Shown here one piece after another: positions 7,083 to 47,073 of a DNA stretch of 49,572 bases; the first letter of the stretch is position 1; every line of letters starts with the position of its first letter. Under the pieces are notes generated by a model. The model saw nothing but the letters and a program-made list of their open reading frames with translations, made no database searches and had not been told where the DNA came from. The translations under genes were made by a program, and so were the position numbers. Origin of the DNA: a virus; the IMG/VR virus record IMGVR_UViG_3300038435_000063, positions 1-49,572 of that record; one strand, given 5' to 3'.

Positions 7083-7584
7083 GATCGTCAATGGTCTGCC
7101 TGTACTTCACCTCCCAAGAAGTGGTCACATAACCCCATCCTGGATTGCGAATCTCTTGAGGCTCGCTTACCGACAGCAACCGCATCGGCTCTTGCAGCAA
7201 GTCCTCGTCATCGGCATTGACCAGAAAGGCCATCTGCAAGGTCTGGTAAATCTTCTGCAATTTAGCATTGAGGCCAAGCGTTGCATCGGTCAGGAAACTA
7301 TTGTCTTGCGGGGGCTGATCCAAGGCGAGCCGGACATAGGCGGCAATGGCCACGGTCCCGATGAAAGAGAAATTGTAGTTGCCGCCGCCTTCCACCTCAC
7401 CTTGATCGATTGTGGCAGCGCCCTGGCTGATGACACAAAGGGAATCGGATGCTGGAAATACCAAGGCTCCGGGATTGGGCTTGATTGACAGAAAGCAAGT
7501 GTTCGGCAGATAGATGCCTTCGTTTACTAGGCTGTCCCGGACGGCTTCCATGATTGCGGAGATGTCGGTTTTGATGTTGGCCAT
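7072..7584 (-). CDS. Head–tail or tail-completion-like protein
   Basis: 170 residues. The sequence begins MANIKTDISAIMEAVRDSLV and continues with alternating beta strands and a central glycine-rich turn (EVEGGGNYNFSF), then WGYVTTSWEVKYRQ near the end. This layout is like small tail-terminator or minor tail proteins, but I cannot name the family. There is no ribosome site; CTAGATA (7594–7600) lies nine bases before the ATG. Confidence 0.5.
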   Translation of the reverse strand: MANIKTDISAIMEAVRDSLVNEGIYLPNTCFLSIKPNPGALVFPASDSLCVISQGAATIDQGEVEGGGNYNFSFIGTVAIAAYVRLALDQPPQDNSFLTDATLGLNAKLQKIYQTLQMAFLVNADDEDLLQEPMRLLSVSEPQEIRNPGWGYVTTSWEVKYRQTIDDPSS

Positions 7585-7666
7585 AGATAGCAGTATCTAG
7601 GCCAGCTGTTCCTCATTATCCGGCTCAAATGCTATTTCACAGCGCGCAAATCCACTAGGATCAAGG

Positions 7667-7774
7667 TTATCCCGGGTTCGCCGTCCGCCATTCCTTGGAG
7701 TAGTCCGGATAGGTTTCACGCCATCGCTTGTTGTATTCTCTATTGTACTGCTTTCGCCTTTCGTCGTTTCTCAT
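7667..7774 (-). pseudogene. Remnant of a basic N-terminus like those of HNH proteins
   Basis: 35 residues, MRNDERRKQYNREYNKRWRE then TYPDYSKEWRTANPG, rich in R/K/Y/E like the N-terminal arms of phage HNH proteins. It stops at TAA. The +1 frame continues as NLDPSGFARCEIAFEPDNEEQLA to a TAG about 70 bases on, so a single small gene may have been frameshifted. TATGTT (7780–7785) lies five bases before the ATG. It is either a remnant of a longer HNH gene or a tiny real gene. Confidence 0.35.
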
Positions 7775-7820
7775 GCCCTAACATAGCGACAACAGAAAAA
7801 AACTTCTCCTCGAACAGAAA

Positions 7821-7845
7821 AGGCTCAGCATTGCTGAGCCTGATT
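7821..7845 (-). terminator. Rho-independent terminator after the 8027–9559 gene
   Basis: AGGCTCAGC and GCTGAGCCT form a nine-base-pair stem around ATT. Read on the minus strand it is followed by TTTTCTG. The 8027–9559 gene ends about 180 bases upstream on that strand, with nothing recognised in between. Confidence 0.65.
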
Positions 7846-8026
7846 CTGACCCATTGATTTAGGCTTGGGATTGCCTGCAACCTCGTTTCGCCGGCTACGC
7901 GCTAGTGATGTTTGGCCTATCCACTTGGGTTACTGGCTTTGTCTCCAGCCGCGACATCCGGCGTTTTTGTGTCACCCGGATTAGACAACCGAACTTTAGC
8001 ATTAACGTTCTAAGCCTGTCAAGCTA

Positions 8027-9559
8027 TTATCCACTGGAACTTGAGAAGCTACTAGAACTCCGACTGCTGCTAGAACTAGAATGGCTGCTGGATGAACTGC
8101 TGCTAGAACTAGAACTGCTGGAGCTAAAGGAACTACTGCTGAAACTGATGCTGGAGCTTGAGGAACTGCTACTGCTGCTCATGCTTGACGAACTACTGCT
8201 GGACATGGTAAAGCCACTGTCTGCAATCGTCGGGCTGAGCGCGGTTGGCAGCATCATGTCCAGGTTCTTCATCCCTAGCATCCGGTCAAACATGGTCTGA
8301 TGCGTCTTGAAGTTGATCGCGCCGCCGTAGTTGTTCGCAAACTGGATGCTGAAATAGTCGTTGTCCAGGAAGTTGACGGACCCGCTAAAGACCGCGATGG
8401 CTGGCCCGCCCACATAGAACACGGACATGGCCCCGAGCGCAAGGTGATCGATATAGACAGACTTATTGACTTGCAGGGCAGTGCTGAGCCGGACCCGGAG
8501 CTTGACCACTGCCGGGATGTTGTGCGGCGTTCTGAAGACGCCTGACACTTTCTGCCAGCCGTAGGAAACCCCGGTCAAGTTCTTGCTGATCGTATTGGCA
8601 TTGCCAGAATCATCGTTGATGACTGCGCCAGTGCTGTCAATTAGGTCAACAGCCAGGACGCCTTGATTCGGGAAACCATCGCAGCGGACCACGAAATTGA
8701 CAGCGTATTGCGTGCTGTCCTCAAGCTCGCCTGCCGTTTCATCTCCGAACTCTTGCGTAAGGCTGGTCAGTTCTGTTCCGTTGCCTTTGATTTTCAGGCT
8801 ACCCGTACCAGTGTAAAACGTGCTGGCATCGTGAAAGATCGTCGTTCCCGCCGTGCCGGTTACAATCGTCCAGTCATCCGGCGCGTTGCTGGTCCAGTCC
8901 TCGAAGTCCGAATTGGTGAGCAAGTTCCCCTTGGTGTTGTCCGATCTTGCGTCAATCGCGTTCAAGGTCAGGCTATTGCCGGAGCCTGCGGGGAAGTCAA
9001 AATTGAGCAACGAGGACGGGGCTTCCGCACCAGTTACCGAAAAGGTTTCCGCGAACTCCAAGGCAGACGAATCTATCCCATCCTGGATGACGATGGCCTG
9101 AACCCGTTCCGGAACGAGGTTTTCCTGATCCCTGCCGTCATAGCGCTTGGTATCAACCACGCACGTGCCGTTGCCAATGTTGATGGCTTGGGCGGCAACA
9201 TTCACGGCGACGGTGCATTTCTGAACCGTCTGGCTGTACTGGATCATTTGCCGGATAAGTTCCTTTACCGCCGCTTCAATATCGAAACGAGACAGCTGCG
9301 GGGAATCGTCGTTGACGGTTTTCAGGATGGTGTTTTGGTAGGACTGTTGCAGGAAACCTAGGATGGTGCCGACTGCGTTTTGCTCGGCAGCTTGCTGGCC
9401 TTCAATGCCGTCAATGCTGGCAAAATCACTGCCCGAATACTGCGACAGGATAAAGTTTATCGCATTCGGCAGTGTACTGCGCTGAAAGCTATTGATGTCC
9501 GCATGAGCATTTCCGATAGCCGCTAGGCGACTGAACAGGGTACTAAAAGTTATAGCCAT
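8027..9559 (-). CDS. Tail fibre/receptor-binding-like protein with carbohydrate-binding module and poly-serine tail
   Basis: 510 residues in three parts. About residues 1–165 are helical (virion attachment?). About residues 205–375 form a CBM4/9-like jelly roll (NLLTNSDFEDWTSNAPDDW ... GTGSLKIKG ... YAVNFVVRC ... RTPHNIPAVVKLRVRL). The last about 60 residues are almost pure serine broken by single M, I, F, H or R residues. Carbohydrate-binding modules on phage tails usually contact surface glycans, so a role in host recognition is inferred. CTATATA (9566–9572) lies six bases before the ATG, with no good ribosome site. It is a single-gene unit closed by the terminator at 7821. Confidence 0.65.
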   Translation of the reverse strand: MAITFSTLFSRLAAIGNAHADINSFQRSTLPNAINFILSQYSGSDFASIDGIEGQQAAEQNAVGTILGFLQQSYQNTILKTVNDDSPQLSRFDIEAAVKELIRQMIQYSQTVQKCTVAVNVAAQAINIGNGTCVVDTKRYDGRDQENLVPERVQAIVIQDGIDSSALEFAETFSVTGAEAPSSLLNFDFPAGSGNSLTLNAIDARSDNTKGNLLTNSDFEDWTSNAPDDWTIVTGTAGTTIFHDASTFYTGTGSLKIKGNGTELTSLTQEFGDETAGELEDSTQYAVNFVVRCDGFPNQGVLAVDLIDSTGAVINDDSGNANTISKNLTGVSYGWQKVSGVFRTPHNIPAVVKLRVRLSTALQVNKSVYIDHLALGAMSVFYVGGPAIAVFSGSVNFLDNDYFSIQFANNYGGAINFKTHQTMFDRMLGMKNLDMMLPTALSPTIADSGFTMSSSSSSSMSSSSSSSSSSISFSSSSFSSSSSSSSSSSSSSHSSSSSSRSSSSFSSSSG

Positions 9560-26395: not shown

Positions 26396-29300
26396 TCACT
26401 TGCGTTTCTTGAACGGCACTGGCTCCTCCTTGGGCTGGTTTCTTGCGATCTCGTCAAATGCCCGGCGGTAGGCTTCCAATCGGGAAATTGGTTTTGGAAC
26501 TCCTGCTATCAGGAATTGGCCTAGCTGGTGCGCGTAATCGTCATCCTGTAGCAAGTGCGGATGCTGGGATCGGACCATTTGCGCCAGTTCGTCAAAGCCC
26601 CGAATGTTTTCCGGGGTTTCGTTTTTCATGTCCTTGCTGAGCAGACTGATGCCGCCGAACTTGCTCTTTTCCTTCACGATGTCCCTGGCTGTCTTGAGCA
26701 TCGCTTGGACTTCTTCGACGTGCTTCCGATCCGTCTGCATGTGGTCATCAGCCAGTCCCTGCAAGTGAACCGGGTCAATGCCTTCCTCCTTGGCTTGCGC
26801 CTTCCAAATCTTGGGCATCTTCTGTGCAGCCTTGGTAATGCGGTCCGCGCCCCGCATCGGTTCGGATCGTGGCTCGTCATCCACATCATCGCCCGGCTGG
26901 CGTTCGGGTGCGTTGACCAGCATTAGCGCCGCTTTGCGGACTGCCCTTGGCTCCGGGGCTGGCTGCTTCGCCTCTGCAATGGCTGCATCGTAGGCTTCTC
27001 GTAGCGGTGGCGGGATTTTGTCTTCTTGCCCGCTATGGATTGCCGCAGTTATTTCGGCGAACATTTCTGCCGGATGGCTAACCCCGAAGCTGGATAGTTG
27101 ATAGTCCTCCTCCTTCAATTTGCCGCTGTCCTTGGCTTCCCGAATGGCCTTTTGAAAATCAACATTCAGTTCGCTTTCGATATGGTGTCCCGCTTCATGC
27201 CCGGCGATTGCTTCCAGGGGATCGGCAGCCGTTTGATGGATGTAATCCGTAGGGGACTTCAACCCGTGTAGCTCTCTTTTCTTGTCAGCAATCTGGGATT
27301 GGAGTTTGCGCCGCTTTTCCCCCGTCGCTTTTTTGGACTCGGCTTCGAGGTTGGCAATGTCGGATTCAAACTGCGGAACTACCTTCGCATTGTGGTCTTG
27401 TCTGCGTTGCTGCTCTTCGGTAGTCGACGGCTTTGTGTCCAGCGCATTGCGGCTAATTGAAAAGTTGCCGCCACTATGCCCGCCAAGGTTCGCATAAAGC
27501 CCTTGCTGATCCGTCAGGTTGATGCTCTTGGGCTGCAACCCATGCAAAGCTAGAACCTTCTCGATATGCCCCTTTACCTTGTCCTCCAGTTCGGGGGCTG
27601 CCGGCTTGCCAAACCACGGAGTTCCTTTCAGTTCGCTTGGGGTTTTCCCGATGGTATGGGCTGGCCCTTTGACGATTTTGCCGTCTTCGATATCGACTGG
27701 GGTGCCGCCGTGCTTTTCGCCGTCTGCGCCTTCCTTGGAACCGATGGTGACCCAGGCGAAACGCCTGGGCTTGCCTTGGCGACGAAAGGGGCTTGCTGCT
27801 GCCACCTCCGGGGCAGATTGGCCATTGCCGGCATTCGGAACGCCTGGCGGGGCATTTGGAGCGATTGGCGGGGCATTCGGATCGGCTGCCGCTGTCGCTT
27901 CCGGCATCACATCCGGGAACAGCAGCTGGGCTTCCATTGGGTCAAAGCCGAACAGCAATTGGGCATTGGCAATAGCAGCTTCTCGCGGGACTTCGCCCGC
28001 ATAGACGGCTTGCTGCAAACTGAGCAAAGCTTGGCTGCCGCCGACAGATGCCCGCAATTCGTTGGCTGATTTGCCGGCAATGTCCTGGCCCACGGGCTGC
28101 GCTTCATCCAGGCTGCCCATATCGGGACCGGGCGGGGCTTGGATGCCTGGCTGCATCGGCTGCTGGGGTTCGTCCGGCTCGGCAGCGATTTGCGCGGCTT
28201 GTTCGCCGGTTGAAGAGACGTGCAGAATCTTGCCATCGGCAGTCGGTTTGCCGAAACCGATGACTGCCCGCAACTCGTCCTCGTCCACGCTGCCGCCCAT
28301 GTCGTAAAAGGTTTTCGCGGCTTGCAGCAGTTTGTCCGGTTGCGGCTGGTCCGGGTTGATAACAAACTTCGGACAGAACTTCGCATCCGGGAAGTTGTAT
28401 TCCATTAGGACCGGAATCAGTTCGCGGGTGATGCATTCGCCGAGGTTCAAGCAGTCATACTTGATGATCTTGGCCAAGGTGTTCTGATGCAGGTCTGCCA
28501 CCGCTGAGCCTAGCCCCGTGTTCTCGGCTTGCTGGCTCAAGGTCTGCCCCAAGATCAGCAAGTTAATTTGGCTGGCGAACAAGTCGCGCACGACCTTGAT
28601 GAGCGCATCCACGTTGCCGGGATTGGCTTCAATGCGTTCCACGCCTGAATGTCGCCTTGCCCCTGGATCGGCAGGAACCGGCATTATGATGGTGTTGCTA
28701 AAGGCTTGGCTTTCGGCAGCCTTGCGCGCGGCATCTTCACTAGCGGGGTTGCCTTGTTCAAAGGTGAAGATGGTATAACCAGTGCCGATACGCTCCATGT
28801 ATTCAACCAGCCATCCCAGCGCTTCGGTCATCAGGTAGTAAGGCCAATAGCAATAGTTGCGCAGCCCGACGCCTTTCAACTGCCCGGCAAACTCTGGCTC
28901 GAAGTAGTCCACGCCGAATAGGAAGCCTTGATTCAGGACTAAGCATTTTCGTTCCCACGGTGTCAGGATGTGCGCGGAAGCACGGTCAGAAATGACGGTT
29001 TCAAGGTTGCGGGCTTCCTCTCCCGCCTTGCCAATGTGAAGCCCGACGTCATCAGAATCCCACTTGAAAACCAGTGTATCGCCGTGAACCGAACTCCAGG
29101 ATTTGACCATCAACCGCTTTTTGCCATTCCGGTAATCCCAGCAATAACGATTCAGGTTGGCGCTGCGCCCATACCAGTTGGCATCCAGCAAGTTCATCTT
29201 GTATTTCGTGAAGAACGGGATGGCTTCAATGATTCGCTGGACTTCCTTGCAGATAGCGACTTGCTCACGGTCCCGCGCGTTCTCCGGTTCCACCGAATGC

Positions 29301-29575
29301 GAGGAAAGGGCTGTGGACATGTAGCGAGCTAGCAACGGCTGCACAATGACGGGATTGCGCCGCATCGCTCTGGCGTTTGCCGGATCGTGCTTGAGCGCTT
29401 CGTCGAACTTGGTTAGGTAAAGTTTGCTGCCTTGGTTGTACTGGCCAACAAACTGCGAAACTGGCTGGACCGGATAACCGCCTGCGCCCGGCGCTACACT
29501 GTCGGGAATGTCCGGCGGACTAGACCATTTGCCATCGTGAAGGATTTGAATACCACTGGGGAGATTGCTGTACAT
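26396..29575 (-). CDS. Mu-like portal protein fused to a zinc-metallopeptidase-like tail
   Basis: 1059 residues from ATG 29575 (MYSNLPSGIQILHDGKW); an upstream start at 29590 is less likely because CTACATA lies five bases before 29575. The first about 470 residues match DUF935 (Mu gp29) portals, e.g. LFASQINLLILGQTLSQQAE and GLGSAVADLHQNTLA. A long proline/alanine linker follows. Near residue 790 is HEAGHHIESEL, an HExxH zinc-peptidase motif, with PAEMFAEITAAI about 60 residues on as possible third ligand region. Portals of this type are usually about 500 residues, so the C-terminal half is an addition. A role in head maturation, or in degrading a host protein after ejection, is inferred. Confidence 0.75.
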   Translation of the reverse strand: MYSNLPSGIQILHDGKWSSPPDIPDSVAPGAGGYPVQPVSQFVGQYNQGSKLYLTKFDEALKHDPANARAMRRNPVIVQPLLARYMSTALSSHSVEPENARDREQVAICKEVQRIIEAIPFFTKYKMNLLDANWYGRSANLNRYCWDYRNGKKRLMVKSWSSVHGDTLVFKWDSDDVGLHIGKAGEEARNLETVISDRASAHILTPWERKCLVLNQGFLFGVDYFEPEFAGQLKGVGLRNYCYWPYYLMTEALGWLVEYMERIGTGYTIFTFEQGNPASEDAARKAAESQAFSNTIIMPVPADPGARRHSGVERIEANPGNVDALIKVVRDLFASQINLLILGQTLSQQAENTGLGSAVADLHQNTLAKIIKYDCLNLGECITRELIPVLMEYNFPDAKFCPKFVINPDQPQPDKLLQAAKTFYDMGGSVDEDELRAVIGFGKPTADGKILHVSSTGEQAAQIAAEPDEPQQPMQPGIQAPPGPDMGSLDEAQPVGQDIAGKSANELRASVGGSQALLSLQQAVYAGEVPREAAIANAQLLFGFDPMEAQLLFPDVMPEATAAADPNAPPIAPNAPPGVPNAGNGQSAPEVAAASPFRRQGKPRRFAWVTIGSKEGADGEKHGGTPVDIEDGKIVKGPAHTIGKTPSELKGTPWFGKPAAPELEDKVKGHIEKVLALHGLQPKSINLTDQQGLYANLGGHSGGNFSISRNALDTKPSTTEEQQRRQDHNAKVVPQFESDIANLEAESKKATGEKRRKLQSQIADKKRELHGLKSPTDYIHQTAADPLEAIAGHEAGHHIESELNVDFQKAIREAKDSGKLKEEDYQLSSFGVSHPAEMFAEITAAIHSGQEDKIPPPLREAYDAAIAEAKQPAPEPRAVRKAALMLVNAPERQPGDDVDDEPRSEPMRGADRITKAAQKMPKIWKAQAKEEGIDPVHLQGLADDHMQTDRKHVEEVQAMLKTARDIVKEKSKFGGISLLSKDMKNETPENIRGFDELAQMVRSQHPHLLQDDDYAHQLGQFLIAGVPKPISRLEAYRRAFDEIARNQPKEEPVPFKKRK

Positions 29576-29649
29576 GCCGGTATGTAGCAACCGGCAAGGT
29601 TAAATTTTATGCGGAGGTAGAGGTAGGGGCGGGGCGGGGGTGGAACCTC

Positions 29650-30719: not shown

Positions 30720-32660
30720 TCAGCCAACTCGACGCTTGGGACGCCGAACGTTTACTACCGGATTCCACGGTTGTACAGCATGGAATTCCGATGCCAGGAT
30801 GTAACGCAAGGCATCAACGCAATGGTTATCCTTGTCCACGGGCTTATCAAGGAACTCATGCCATTGGTACGTCCGGAGTTCCCGAATCAGATTGGTGCAG
30901 TCCCTGGAAATGTAAAGCTTAGGCTTGCCGTCTGCCGCGAGCTTGAGATGCTGCTGGACTACATTGATGCCCGCCTTGATATCCTTCTTGGCTGGCGTGT
31001 TCGGCAAGCCCCGGATGCGGAACTCTGCACGCTCCTGCAAACCGCCGTAGTCCGCATAGGTCATCCAGTTGTCGTTCCAGCTCTTCGCCTTGATCGCTTC
31101 GACGTGTTCCTCAATTGTCGCTTCCCTACGGAAGTATTCATCGTAAACATAGTAGCGCCCTTCCCGGTCACGCGCTGCGAAAATGCAGACGGTCGGATGG
31201 TTGTAACCGAAGTCCAGCCCGCGAAAGTGGGGCCAGTCATCCGGAATGTGCCTTGGCTGGATAACATGAATTGCCGGGTTGAAGGACTTGTAAACCGATC
31301 CGTAGTAGCTGCTAAACGCGCCGATCCTTCTCGCTTCCCGTTCTTCCTCAAGGCAGTTGTCCAGAATGCGACGGATGGCACCGGGGGCAACCTTGTCATT
31401 GCATTCCCCATTCATCCGGTAAAACTTCCAGTCCGTGTAGCGCTCTTGGTTTTCGTAAATCTGTTCTATGTACGGATCGGGCCTAAGTGGCGTAAGGCTG
31501 TAAATCTGGCTGCCGGGGTAATGGTAATCACGGCACCGCGCCCAAATGGACCCAAGCCGATCCGGGCTGATTTGTTCGTCAATCCAGAAACCGCCGATGG
31601 ACGATGCTTCAAACTTCTCTTGCTCGCTTTCGCCAGACTTCATTTCAATAACCCAGTTGTTACCGTGCGCATCGTTTTTCAGGATGACGGTAAGGGGTTG
31701 CTGCTGTCGCTGGCTGTACCACGTGTAACCGGCTATTGCGCTTCGCGGAATGAACCGGGACATGTGGGTTTGCCAACACGTGCCAATCGATTTATCGAAG
31801 GTTGGGCCAATGATCCAGATTGGACACATCGGGCGAGGTGGCGGGGTTTCCAGGATGTGCGTTGCCATCTTTGCGGCAGCCACGATGGATTTACCGCTGT
31901 TGTGATGCCATACCCCGCTCAGTTCGTAATTGTGGTTCTTGGCAACGGTTAGATCATAGAACCGATCTTTTTTCACATAGCGAACTTTGGTAATATGGGG
32001 GCATGAAGCAAAAGTATCCTTGGCCACTAGAGGCAATGAAAGACCTCTACACGTCTGGCCTTGAAGTTGTGCATCACATTGACAATAACCCTGGCAACAA
32101 TGCCATTGAAAACCTCGCCCTGTTTGCGAGCAATGCCGATCATCTGCGGGAAACCCTGGCTGGTAAATGCCCGAACTGGAGCGCAGCGGGCAAGGCTCGG
32201 ATAGGACGTGCTTTAGAGGCAGCCACTGACCGGCGGCGCACAAAACCCGATGCGCCAAAGTCGCCACGAACTGGCAACCATTGGACAGCGTAAACTCGTA
32301 TAGGTCGGCAATGCCCTTCACGAATGGCTTTGACGCCAGTGCAATCTCCCGCTGCCCCGTCTGCTCATTCAACGAATGGACGTGGAACGGTCCTGCAATT
32401 TGGTCCAGCCTGCAATACTCTTCCGCTATCGGATCATAAAGTTCCGTCCAGCCCGCAAGACAGCCCGTTCCACCTAAGCAACAAGCGATGCCGTTGAACT
32501 TCTCGGTTAGAAAACTGGTCTGCTGGTCATAAAGTTCCGGCTGGTCAGGACGAGGCTCGAAGTTCCGCAACGGTAGATTGAGCGCATCGTGAAGCAAGGC
32601 AATTAGCTTCTTGTCCTTGCTCTTCAGGATCGTTTCAATTTCGTCGTCAGTGAACTGCAT
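30720..32660 (-). CDS. Terminase large subunit interrupted by an intein
   Basis: 646 residues as read; 458 after removal of a 188-residue intein (residues 67–254). The exteins join as LGGTG + SGKSIVAAAKM, a complete Walker A motif. Walker B is GGFWIDEQ. The C-terminal nuclease has FRGLDFGYNHP, YADYGG and DKDNHCVDALRY, with the three expected acidic residues. The enzyme packages DNA into the prohead, using ATP and cutting DNA. It follows the small subunit gene by 15 bases. CTAGATA (32665–32671) lies four bases before the ATG. Without splicing the ATPase would lack an intact P-loop. Confidence 0.9.
   Translation of the reverse strand: MQFTDDEIETILKSKDKKLIALLHDALNLPLRNFEPRPDQPELYDQQTSFLTEKFNGIACCLGGTGCLAGWTELYDPIAEEYCRLDQIAGPFHVHSLNEQTGQREIALASKPFVKGIADLYEFTLSNGCQFVATLAHRVLCAAGQWLPLKHVLSEPCPLRSSSGIYQPGFPADDRHCSQTGRGFQWHCCQGYCQCDAQLQGQTCRGLSLPLVAKDTFASCPHITKVRYVKKDRFYDLTVAKNHNYELSGVWHHNSGKSIVAAAKMATHILETPPPRPMCPIWIIGPTFDKSIGTCWQTHMSRFIPRSAIAGYTWYSQRQQQPLTVILKNDAHGNNWVIEMKSGESEQEKFEASSIGGFWIDEQISPDRLGSIWARCRDYHYPGSQIYSLTPLRPDPYIEQIYENQERYTDWKFYRMNGECNDKVAPGAIRRILDNCLEEEREARRIGAFSSYYGSVYKSFNPAIHVIQPRHIPDDWPHFRGLDFGYNHPTVCIFAARDREGRYYVYDEYFRREATIEEHVEAIKAKSWNDNWMTYADYGGLQERAEFRIRGLPNTPAKKDIKAGINVVQQHLKLAADGKPKLYISRDCTNLIRELRTYQWHEFLDKPVDKDNHCVDALRYILASEFHAVQPWNPVVNVRRPKRRVG
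31899..32462 (-). other. Intein in the terminase Walker A motif
   Basis: 188 residues. Block A begins at C1 (CLAGWTELYD). Block B is TLAH near residue 68. Blocks F/G read FYDLTVAKNHNYELSGVWHHN, here split as FYDLTVAKNHNY and ELSGVWHHN, with Asn188 and the next extein residue Ser. All splicing residues (Cys1, block B Thr/His, His-Asn, +1 Ser) are present, so it should splice. No in-frame endonuclease motif is seen; residues about 95–150 are an odd Gln/Cys/Gly/Ser-rich linker. That stretch is the complement of a plus-strand HNH gene (32003–32293). Confidence 0.9.
32003..32293 (+). CDS. HNH endonuclease encoded antisense within the intein
   Basis: 96 residues. VVHHIDNNPGNNAIENLALF and SNADHLRETLAGK match the conserved core of the HNH_3-type phage endonucleases (HH, xxN, H). 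It lies wholly inside the intein coding region but on the other strand, opposite intein residues 57–153. TAATAT six bases upstream and GGGGGC before the ATG give a possible start signal. It would serve as the homing enzyme for the intein in trans. Confidence 0.75.
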   Translation: MKQKYPWPLEAMKDLYTSGLEVVHHIDNNPGNNAIENLALFASNADHLRETLAGKCPNWSAAGKARIGRALEAATDRRRTKPDAPKSPRTGNHWTA

Positions 32661-33384: not shown

Positions 33385-34065
33385 CTATTCGGCTCGCAAC
33401 AGAATTGCCCGGACTTGCACGTGTTTCCAGATTTTGCCTTGCCGGGTCGTATAGCCTTCCGCGTTCAGCCGGTCAGCGATGGCTTGCAGGGTTTCGCCAG
33501 CCTGACGCATCTCCTGGATCATGGGCAGGACATGGGCATAGGCTTGGGCGGTTTGCTGCTGAATGGCCATCCGGCTGGCCCGGTTGCCCTTCCTGCGGGC
33601 GGCATCGGTCAAGTTCCGGCATTTGGGCAGTTGTGCGCCCAGCAAGCCCCCGCGAGCCTTGTAGGCTGCCAGGGCTGCTTTCGTCCTTGTGCTGATGTCC
33701 TTGGCTTCCTTCTCGGCAACGGCAGCCAGGATATGCAGGGTGAACCGATCCGCGTTCGGCATGTCGGCGAAAACGATCTCGACGTCGCTTTCCAGCAGCT
33801 GGCTCAGGAAAGCGACATTGCGGGACAGCCGATCCAGTTTGGCCACAATCAGGGTTGCGCCACGGGCTTTGCAGGTTTGCAGGGCTGCCGCCAGTTGCGG
33901 GCGCGATGACAACTTGCCGGATTCCGCTTCAGTGAACGCGGGCAGGACCGGGCGGGTTGCCAGCTGGGCGAACCGCTCGACCGTCGCTTGCTGGGCTTCC
34001 AGGCCAAGCCCGGAGCGCTCTTGCTTGGTTGTGCTTACGCGGTAGTACGGGATCAGGGCTTTCAT
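33385..34065 (-). CDS. Small serine recombinase (resolvase/invertase type)
   Basis: 226 residues from ATG 34065. The catalytic domain begins IPYYRVSTTKQERSGLGLEA with Ser11; later motifs include LIVAKLDRLSRN and AAVAEKEAKDISTRTKAAL. The C-terminus has a short HTH-like part (GETLQAIADRLNAEGYTTRQ, GKIWKHVQVRAILLR). It is the size of resolvases and invertases, unlike the large integrase at 45094. It could invert a phage segment or resolve multimers; no inverted target sites were spotted. AAAGGA precedes the start. Confidence 0.85.
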   Translation of the reverse strand: MKALIPYYRVSTTKQERSGLGLEAQQATVERFAQLATRPVLPAFTEAESGKLSSRPQLAAALQTCKARGATLIVAKLDRLSRNVAFLSQLLESDVEIVFADMPNADRFTLHILAAVAEKEAKDISTRTKAALAAYKARGGLLGAQLPKCRNLTDAARRKGNRASRMAIQQQTAQAYAHVLPMIQEMRQAGETLQAIADRLNAEGYTTRQGKIWKHVQVRAILLRAE

Positions 34066-34076
34066 GGCTGGTCCTT

Positions 34077-34280
34077 TCACTTGCGGTTGATGCTGGTTGC
34101 CGGAACGCTGATCGGGAAAAGTTCTTCGTCGGGACGGACCACGATGGACTTGCCAGCCTGACGAATGACCACGGCGGAATGAAAGAGCAGCCCGCGATGG
34201 AACGCAGTGATGTTGCCAGGGATGGCCACAATCTGACCGGGCTTCACGGGCTTGACCTTGGCTTGCTTGACCTTGTTCAT
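34077..34280 (-). CDS. Small basic protein upstream of the recombinase
   Basis: 67 residues, MNKVKQAKVKPVKPGQIVAI ... TAFHRGLLFHSAVVIRQAGK. It looks like a short beta-barrel. TAGGAGCC precedes the ATG and the next gene follows after 11 bases, so the two form an operon. Function is unknown. Confidence 0.5.
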   Translation of the reverse strand: MNKVKQAKVKPVKPGQIVAIPGNITAFHRGLLFHSAVVIRQAGKSIVVRPDEELFPISVPATSINRK

Positions 34281-45093: not shown

Positions 45094-47073
45094 ATGCTTC
45101 AGCCCAAGCCCGGAGATCGCTGCTGTTCCTATATCCGCTGTTCCACTACCGAACAATCTAGCGACGGCTATTCGGTGGAACGGCAAGACAGTTCGCTTGA
45201 GGGTTGCGAGCGAAAACTGAACATCAAGATTGCCAAGGTGTTCACGGACGAAGGCGGCAAGCGCTGGAAGTTGTCAAGCCGTCCCGATTTTCACAAGCTC
45301 TGGAACGAGATTGCTGCCGGGCTTTGGGATTGGGTCATCGTGGACAGCCAGGAACGCTACGGCACGGAGAACGCCTTCCAGTGGGGATCGTTTTGCGACC
45401 ACTTGCTCCGGCATGGCTGCAACCTTTGGGCTATCGCTGAATCGCGATGCCTGACGGACCCGGATGACATCGGCGGGGTTATCCTTGGCAATGTCAATGC
45501 GGTCCTTTCGTCAAAACACATCCTCGATAAATCCCGAAGCGTCATGCAGGCCAAGCATCTAATGGCCAAGGAAGACAGGTATACCGGCGGGCTATTCCCC
45601 TACGCCTACGACGTCGCCATCTTCCAGGGCAAGACCGATCAGGAACTTTGGCGCATCTATCTGGTGTCTAGCGTTCTGGGTGACTACTACACTGCCCGCA
45701 ATGGCAAGCGCCGCCGGAAGCGGGTCAGCACATACCGCAAGATCATGCCGGACGGATCGTATACCGAGCAGCCGTCATTCCCTGCATATGAGGACCACGA
45801 TACCGCCCGCTGGGTCATCACCAACGATCAGGACCGTCTAAAGGTACTGGCGTTGATTTTTGACCTCAAGAGCCAAGGCAAAGCGGATAATAAGATTGCC
45901 CGGACCCTGAACGAAATGGGCATTCCGACGATGTATGGCAAGGTCTGGAACCAGTCCGACATTGATAACATTTTGACGAACCCGAAATATCATGGCGAAA
46001 AGATTTACGGCAGACGCTGCCATTCCCCGTTTCATGATGTGGTCAATGGGCAGGTTGAACGAGTTTCCAAACCGCAACCTAGGGCTGCTGCCGAAATCGT
46101 TCGCCACAAGGTAGATTGCCTGATCGCTGATGCCGTCTGGAAGGACATTCAAGAACTGAAAGCCGAAAAGCGGACGGTCGGCATTCGGGGCCATAACCTT
46201 TGGTTGAAACCGTTCCTTTACTGCGCCGACTGCAAGCAGCAGATGCGAGCAGACCGCCGCGAGCAGGTTTATTACTGCGCAACCCATCAGGATCAGTCAC
46301 GGGCTGGCTTGCCCACTTCTTGCAAGCGGAACAGCCTTCGCCATGCCAAAGCGGAGGAACTGGTCCTGCGCTACCTTGCTGATGTCGGCAAGGATATTGA
46401 AGCCCTGACCAGCCCAATTCAGCCCCTGCCTGAATCGGCGAACAATCCGAAGCGGGAACGGCTTTGGCAACTGATTGAGCGGATGCATGAGTTCATGGGG
46501 CGGCATTGCGACGGCAACATGGTCAACGATTACCTGGCGTTCGTGGAAACTCGCCAGCGCAAGGGCGAAACGGGTTGCAAGCCGCCGGGGCTGGACCTTT
46601 ACGAGTTCGTCTTCGCCCGCAAGCAAACCCGCCTTACCGCCGAACTGGATCAGAAGGAAGCCGAGCATGCCGACATGGTTGCCGGGTTCCTGAAACTGAC
46701 AAGCCCGCTGGCCATCCAGAAGGCCAACGAAATGATGGGCAGCCTGGAAGCGGAAATTACCCAGCTGCGTGAAGAGGTCCAGCCGATCCATCATGAACAA
46801 GAGGCGCTGCTGTCTGAGATTGAGCGGATGAAAATTGCAGCGGAAGAATTGCACCGGCAGATGACCCAGGACGATGGCCAGCGGAAGGCGGCAGCGCTGA
46901 GAAACGTGGTTGATCAGGTCGTTTGCACTTTTCGGGATAATCCTCTTGCGAGGAAAAAACACACTGGTAGAATGAGTAGATCGAGGCTGGTCGAGGTGGC
47001 AGTCCTCCCCCGAAAGGGTGGCAGGGTAGCGACTTACGACTTGTCCGGAATCCATTGTGTCACGTTGACGTAG
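45094..47073 (+). CDS. Large serine integrase
   Basis: 659 residues. The catalytic domain begins CCSYIRCSTTEQSSDGYSVE with Ser17. A recombinase domain follows (ARTLNEMGIPTMYGKVWNQS), then a zinc ribbon (CADCKQQMRADRREQVYYC ... C near residue 410) and a C-terminal coiled coil (about 500–620), the usual plan of large serine integrases. It would join attP and attB and needs a directionality factor for excision. A strong AAGGAGGT site precedes the ATG. It lies at the right end, next to the presumed attR. Confidence 0.9.
   Translation: MLQPKPGDRCCSYIRCSTTEQSSDGYSVERQDSSLEGCERKLNIKIAKVFTDEGGKRWKLSSRPDFHKLWNEIAAGLWDWVIVDSQERYGTENAFQWGSFCDHLLRHGCNLWAIAESRCLTDPDDIGGVILGNVNAVLSSKHILDKSRSVMQAKHLMAKEDRYTGGLFPYAYDVAIFQGKTDQELWRIYLVSSVLGDYYTARNGKRRRKRVSTYRKIMPDGSYTEQPSFPAYEDHDTARWVITNDQDRLKVLALIFDLKSQGKADNKIARTLNEMGIPTMYGKVWNQSDIDNILTNPKYHGEKIYGRRCHSPFHDVVNGQVERVSKPQPRAAAEIVRHKVDCLIADAVWKDIQELKAEKRTVGIRGHNLWLKPFLYCADCKQQMRADRREQVYYCATHQDQSRAGLPTSCKRNSLRHAKAEELVLRYLADVGKDIEALTSPIQPLPESANNPKRERLWQLIERMHEFMGRHCDGNMVNDYLAFVETRQRKGETGCKPPGLDLYEFVFARKQTRLTAELDQKEAEHADMVAGFLKLTSPLAIQKANEMMGSLEAEITQLREEVQPIHHEQEALLSEIERMKIAAEELHRQMTQDDGQRKAAALRNVVDQVVCTFRDNPLARKKHTGRMSRSRLVEVAVLPRKGGRVATYDLSGIHCVTLT

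Follow-up and report, generated by a model that had tools for sequence, protein, structure and literature searches.

The window analysed here, the whole stretch of a virus record of 49,572 bp, encodes the large terminase (TerL) in a minus-strand frame at 32660..30723, which comprises 646 residues with an insert included. The identity of TerL is supported by matches to Terminase_6N and Terminase_6C of the Pfam database and to phrog_5653. The insert of 188 residues (32462..31899, minus strand) interrupts the Walker A motif between GGTG and SGKS, and in the translation an undivided GGTG-SGKS is restored once TerL residues 67-254 are taken out. The N-extein of 66 residues (32463..32660, minus strand) ends in CCLGGTG. 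The C-extein (30720..31898, minus strand) starts with SGKS and comprises the remainder of the ATPase and the nuclease, as assigned by the Terminase_6N/6C and phrog_5653 matches. The minus strand of the window also encodes a Mu-like portal protein of 1064 residues (26396-29590) fused to a long C-terminal extension with HEAGH, a possible metalloprotease motif. Two serine recombinases are encoded at 33385-34080 (minus strand) and 45094-47073 (plus strand), one of them small and of the resolvase type and one large with a zinc ribbon.

The insert has the organisation of an intein that extends from C1 to N188 (31899..32462, minus strand). Blocks A, B, F and G are intact in an alignment with 20 related inteins and include C1, T68xxH71, D170, H187-N188 and the Ser at position +1. 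Block A, CLAGWTELYD (32433..32462), begins with the invariant C1, block B, GCQFVATLAHRVLCA (32235..32279), holds the TxxH with the invariant H71, and blocks F and G are represented by FYDLTVAKNHNYELSGVWHHN (31899..31964), all of them on the minus strand. The Intein_splicing family of Pfam matches the C-terminal part alone, at 27.5 bits against a curated cut-off of 35.8 bits, which is a score threshold and not a mechanistic feature; by its motifs and its fold the insert is an intein. AlphaFold models both splicing halves with a pLDDT of about 95-98, and Foldseek matches the window intein to the Npu and Ssp DnaB inteins, which indicates a Hint fold (best match the NpuDnaB intein 4o1r, E-value 1.1e-7). 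The pLDDT is mostly 40-49 at intein residues 95-150, the stretch opposite an HNH ORF. The intein linker opposite this ORF (32010..32207, minus strand) is devoid of conserved protein sequence, as judged from the pLDDT and the substitution pattern of the relatives, and the intein frame opposite the HNH has neither an endonuclease domain nor any conserved domain. Motifs, Foldseek matches and translation thus agree with the initial annotation, which had recognised a 188-residue intein with splicing motifs in the terminase Walker A motif and had noted that its own frame is without an endonuclease motif, the HNH being situated on the other strand. The window intein is predicted to be splicing-competent.

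The HNH ORF, P0001, encodes 96 residues (32003-32293, plus strand) and lies wholly inside the intein on the opposite strand, with its codon position 1 facing codon position 1 of the intein. It matches the HNH_3 family of Pfam with 27.8 bits against a cut-off of 24.8 bits over profile positions 19-39 of 46, and also phrog_10730. The retained β-β-α core of the HNH domain, EVVHHIDNNPGNNAIENLALFASNADHLR (32063..32149, plus strand), has kept the invariant H25, N33, N37 and H47 and shares a sequence identity of 67% over 49 residues with intact relatives. These relatives are about 170-300 residues in length and have an N-terminal extension with, in many of them, a recognisable helix-turn-helix (HTH). 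HNH_3 is matched by 23 of 24 relatives and HTH families by part of those 24. The pattern of the intact proteins is an N-terminal extension followed by G..HP...EHRLVMExxLGRYL..EVVDHID....N..NLRLFASNADHL.

In P0001 the HTH is missing, and so are profile positions 1-18 of HNH_3. In this protein KYPWPLEAMKDLYTSG, which ends in KDLYTSG, runs straight into LEVVHHID, and the product is about 92-94 residues short of its nearest relatives, L002 and L065. The deletion junction, between LYTSG and LEVV, is placed at 32051..32065 (plus strand), its breakpoint at base level being inferred, and the missing residues comprise the HTH and the region of EHRLVMExxLGRYL. The 16-residue N-terminal piece of P0001 matches the relatives locally no better than shuffled peptides do, so that the case for a deletion rests mainly on the missing domains and the consistent position. 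A complete HNH_3-like gene antisense within the intein had been claimed earlier for this ORF; family, strand and location stand, and completeness is lost with the HTH and half of HNH_3.

Short inteins of 203-224 residues found elsewhere have likewise lost the N-terminus of the HNH, several of them with stop codons upstream, and in mini-inteins of 154 and 143 residues the antisense frame still reads LKGRVPNWSDEGKKAISDAVK and EQGGRCPNWTEDGKARLAHARK. The 188-residue intein of the window fits a decay series that ends in such mini-inteins, and we read its HNH as a probable internally deleted remnant, that is, a decaying antisense homing gene. A scan of the window revealed neither a promoter on the HNH strand nor a clear Shine-Dalgarno sequence before the ATG of P0001. 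As the DNA-binding domain is gone and neither signal is detectable, an active enzyme is unlikely to come from the window copy. The 96 residues could alternatively form a working compact homing enzyme in which the core alone cuts and another protein perhaps binds the DNA. Such an enzyme would agree with the 96 open codons, with the retention of all invariant core residues and with the 67% identity of the core to intact relatives. We consider it improbable in view of the N-terminal extension that every intact relative has, comprising the initial half of HNH_3, and the HTH present in many, of the parallel losses in the 203-224-residue inteins and of the missing expression signals.

The wider occurrence of this arrangement was analysed in several sets of loci. 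A scan of IMG/VR with the 96-residue protein identified 53 relatives, and in most of them the HNH is flanked on the other strand by N- and C-terminal intein pieces. A second scan, with an HNH alignment, gave at least 562 candidates, and the 80 best of these were retained; 66 relatives were added from bacterial and archaeal genomes. The viral loci, scored with the HNH profile, have on the opposite strand an ORF of 400 residues or longer in 49 of 54 and 75 of 79 cases when selected by HNH similarity alone, the second set being drawn from the best 80 of at least 562. All those ORFs share one phase, in which HNH position 1 is opposite intein position 1, HNH 2 opposite intein 3 and HNH 3 opposite intein 2. 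Both the N- and C-terminal splicing ends are present in 131 of the 139 phase-0 antisense ORFs. The bacterial and archaeal set is mixed, and for the majority of its HNH relatives the gene is not opposite a long ORF. The element is hosted mostly by TerL at Walker A, and has also been identified in SNF2-like helicases, an AAA_24 ATPase and an AAA_34 protein.

Six loci (L034, L045-L048 and L053) encode an antisense HNH with long C-terminal extensions in larger ORFs of the same phase. These ORFs match intein profiles weakly or not at all and are possibly a divergent branch with other insertion sites. Downstream of its antisense-HNH intein, the TerL of L063 apparently has another insert (CLAAGTMVATSGG...FFANGILVANC) that is intein-like and distinct from the first.

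In order to avoid selection on the HNH, loci were also picked by the intein N-termini of two subfamilies. Of these 123 loci, 110 have a continuous intein and, antisense to it in the phase described above, an HNH; six are mini-inteins of 130-173 residues without the antisense HNH, and one (L330) has an ordinary in-frame HNH. Homologous inteins with and without the antisense gene, which the initial annotation had proposed to look for, are both represented. The total comes to 238 loci with a continuous intein and an antisense HNH, some contigs among them having been fetched more than once, and these form 157 clusters at 90% HNH identity. Since the same HNH family is antisense in inteins at more than 200 other loci, the arrangement in the window is not a matter of chance. 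Isolates also contain more remote HNH_3 relatives whose genes are free-standing and on the same strand (phiH, IME-SA4, PSTNGR2lys and Xanthomonas L13.2), which would agree with a free-standing endonuclease gene that was inserted in the intein by chance and has no special link to it. Such an insertion could explain the origin at most and not the present state, and as an account of the latter it is very improbable, given the single phase across all these loci, the stop-free intein frame and the high frequency of the HNH in inteins picked regardless of it.

The selection acting on the two frames was deduced from the loci of the relatives and not from the window copy. Differences in the HNH core at codon positions 1, 2 and 3 amount to 1332, 1105 and 2464 in 28 non-overlapping pairs. 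The same stretch aligned in the intein frame shows 1361, 2235 and 1266 differences, an excess at the second position, and the N- and C-terminal splicing regions are ordinary (460/386/819 and 317/239/508). The substitutions occur where a third position of the HNH faces a second position of the intein, and hence the HNH is conserved as a protein and the linker is not. The HNH frame is under purifying selection at the level of the family. Among the relatives the outcome is thus the opposite of both patterns that had been named as contrary to the double-coding interpretation, namely a conserved linker facing a broken HNH frame and an HNH frame devoid of purifying selection. The double duty proposed for the linker DNA applies to the family, where one strand encodes a spacer and the other a conserved HTH-HNH protein; in the window the HNH partner is a remnant.

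No stop codon occurs in the intein frame facing 98 distinct HNH genes, taken from loci preselected for having the intein ends in one ORF, against 385 ± 12 in synonymous shuffles of the HNH codons, and a long antisense ORF is present in nearly all viral HNH relatives without such preselection. Stops are avoided in the intein frame. HNH and intein distances are weakly correlated (Mantel r 0.13, p 0.002), so that HNH genes may to some degree have passed from one intein to another; strict co-inheritance of the two finds little support in this value. A Pfam-less ORF of 393 residues (30771-31952, plus strand) antisense to the TerL C-extein is probably spurious, and its occurrence indicates that an open frame alone means little and that homology, phase and selection have to carry the case. 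By these three the possibility that the window HNH is itself a spurious antisense ORF has been countered.

Evidence for mobility of the element comes from cultured phages. Pseudoalteromonas phage PHS3 carries the element, and phage AL has a TerL of 98.8% protein identity without it. In comparison with AL the PHS3 unit is a clean insertion of 900 bp between the GGxG and SGKS codons. Every 60-bp block between -360 and +240 has 58-60 identical nucleotides in the two phages, and beyond +240 the blocks fall to 51-59 of 60, a profile as co-conversion would leave. The presence and absence of the intein with its gene at one site in close relatives is thus seen for the family, in PHS3 and AL, and not for the window: no close relative of the window phage was found with the whole TerL including its intein, with the intein N-terminus of the window or of L002, or by blastn against phage records. 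The element has also been identified in eight phages of Pectobacterium and Dickeya. In the three of these records that were examined, TerL is annotated as a hypothetical protein and the HNH is without an annotated gene. Between TerL and the portal gene, PHS3 (L207) encodes a putative DNA methylase (7183-8103) that is absent there in AL (L206).

The TerL-intein of PHS3 is one continuous frame of 708 codons, though its annotation divides the terminase into separate pieces on either side of the HNH. That annotation, and the free-standing endonucleases that are known beside split inteins, might suggest an intein that is split, or a linker that is untranslated, with the N- and C-terminal parts made separately around the HNH as in fractured genes, a very improbable reading that we reject since the frame from N to C is free of stops in 131 loci and in 118 of the 123 intein-picked loci and is continuous in PHS3, and since synonymous shuffles predict hundreds of stops.

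Signals for separate expression of the HNH have been identified in many members of the family. A strict Shine-Dalgarno sequence precedes the HNH start in 35 of 98 loci, compared with 4% when other start codons of these inteins are taken. A σ70-like site with at least 9 of 12 matches occurs upstream of the gene in 37 of 57 loci and inside the gene in 8 of 57, two of the sites being perfect; this comparison was limited to the 57 loci with a Shine-Dalgarno-like site, with mononucleotide shuffles and gene-internal sequence as controls. In PHS3, TTGACA-N17-GATAAT is situated 31 nucleotides before the HNH start. These ribosome binding and promoter-like sites would fit expression of the HNH independent of the terminase. 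The earlier suggestion that the enzyme is produced independently is consistent with this enrichment as far as the family is concerned, and does not extend to the window copy, for which neither signal was detected.

Taken together, the element in the window is very probably a decayed copy of a mobile intein that belongs to a large phage-borne family and carries its homing gene antisense across the linker. In the scheme proposed, the linker would be read through without stops, so that the TerL precursor is translated whole and then splices, the linker being a poorly conserved and probably disordered spacer. The antisense gene would give an HTH and HNH_3 protein resembling I-HmuI, which in many members could be made independently of the terminase from its own Shine-Dalgarno sequence and σ70-like promoter. 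An allele without the intein would be cut by the HNH enzyme at its unbroken Walker A codons, and the intein would be copied in, together with the antisense gene, when the break is repaired. In the window, an in-frame deletion of about 280 bp would have taken the HTH together with the N-terminal half of the HNH domain and left both frames open. Cutting, homing, splicing and the timing of expression are what we infer, and independence from late terminase expression may be an attractive reason for the antisense layout.

The family shares features with several known systems. An AlphaFold model of the full HNH protein (pLDDT 89.6) consists of three N-terminal helices and a β-β-α core, and its most probable structural match is I-HmuI (PDB 1u3e), with a probability of 0.91 but an E-value of 0.12 and a TM-score of 0.31. 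I-HmuI, the HNH homing endonuclease of a group I intron of phage SPO1, is thus similar in its HNH core and is the best, albeit weak, homing-endonuclease fold match; the antisense HNH family differs in its N-terminal HTH and in being intein-borne and antisense. Dassa et al. are said to have described in 2009 fractured genes with split inteins and free-standing endonucleases. There, as here, an intein is accompanied by an endonuclease with a gene of its own, but the present intein is in one piece, and the gene overlaps with it from the opposite strand.

HNH_3 domains encoded in frame are ordinary in inteins, as exemplified by the dCTP deaminase intein of cyanophage CL131 (PMC6293099). Inteins with in-frame endonucleases, whether LAGLIDADG or HNH, resemble the present family in the splicing domain, the location in an active-site motif of an essential gene, HNH_3 and the mini-intein derivatives. 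Their endonuclease is part of the intein polypeptide and is made with the host protein, whereas here it is a separate protein of the opposite strand. The ShiLan element, reported in 2025, has an out-of-frame HNH hidden in a phage methylase (PMC11855218); it is also mobile, with the HNH in another frame of an insert that is kept open in the host frame. In ShiLan the HNH is on the same strand, in the third frame, and no intein or self-splicing domain was detected, unlike the antisense gene inside a true intein described here. The nuclear rDNA group I introns S1506 of Porphyra have a homing endonuclease gene on the complementary strand (PMC2585584) and share the placement of a homing gene antisense to the host gene within a self-splicing element. 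They are RNA introns that interrupt an rRNA gene and encode a His-Cys box enzyme, and they need no protein-coding overlap, whereas in the present family both strands code for protein.

No published report of an antisense homing gene in an intein was found in the open-access papers searched. The family is likely to represent a large unreported class of mobile inteins, situated for the most part at the Walker A motif of phage terminases and of further P-loop ATPases. In this class the gene of the homing endonuclease would run antisense across the linker and have a promoter and a ribosome binding site of its own, homing would be uncoupled from translation of the host protein, and the two genes would constrain the codons of each other in one fixed phase.

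The endonuclease of a mobile intein is generally regarded as one of the domains of the protein that undergoes splicing. A family so common in which the homing enzyme is instead antisense-encoded would change the annotation of inteins, the element being mis-annotated or un-annotated in PHS3 and the Pectobacterium phages. It would also provide a large natural set of overlapping genes on both strands in a fixed phase for the study of the evolution of overlaps, and a visible decay series from a full homing gene to mini-inteins in which antisense fragments are left. The separate timing of the enzyme and the host protein is a testable reason for the layout, and two cultured phages of the same host species, with and without the element, would make homing directly testable.
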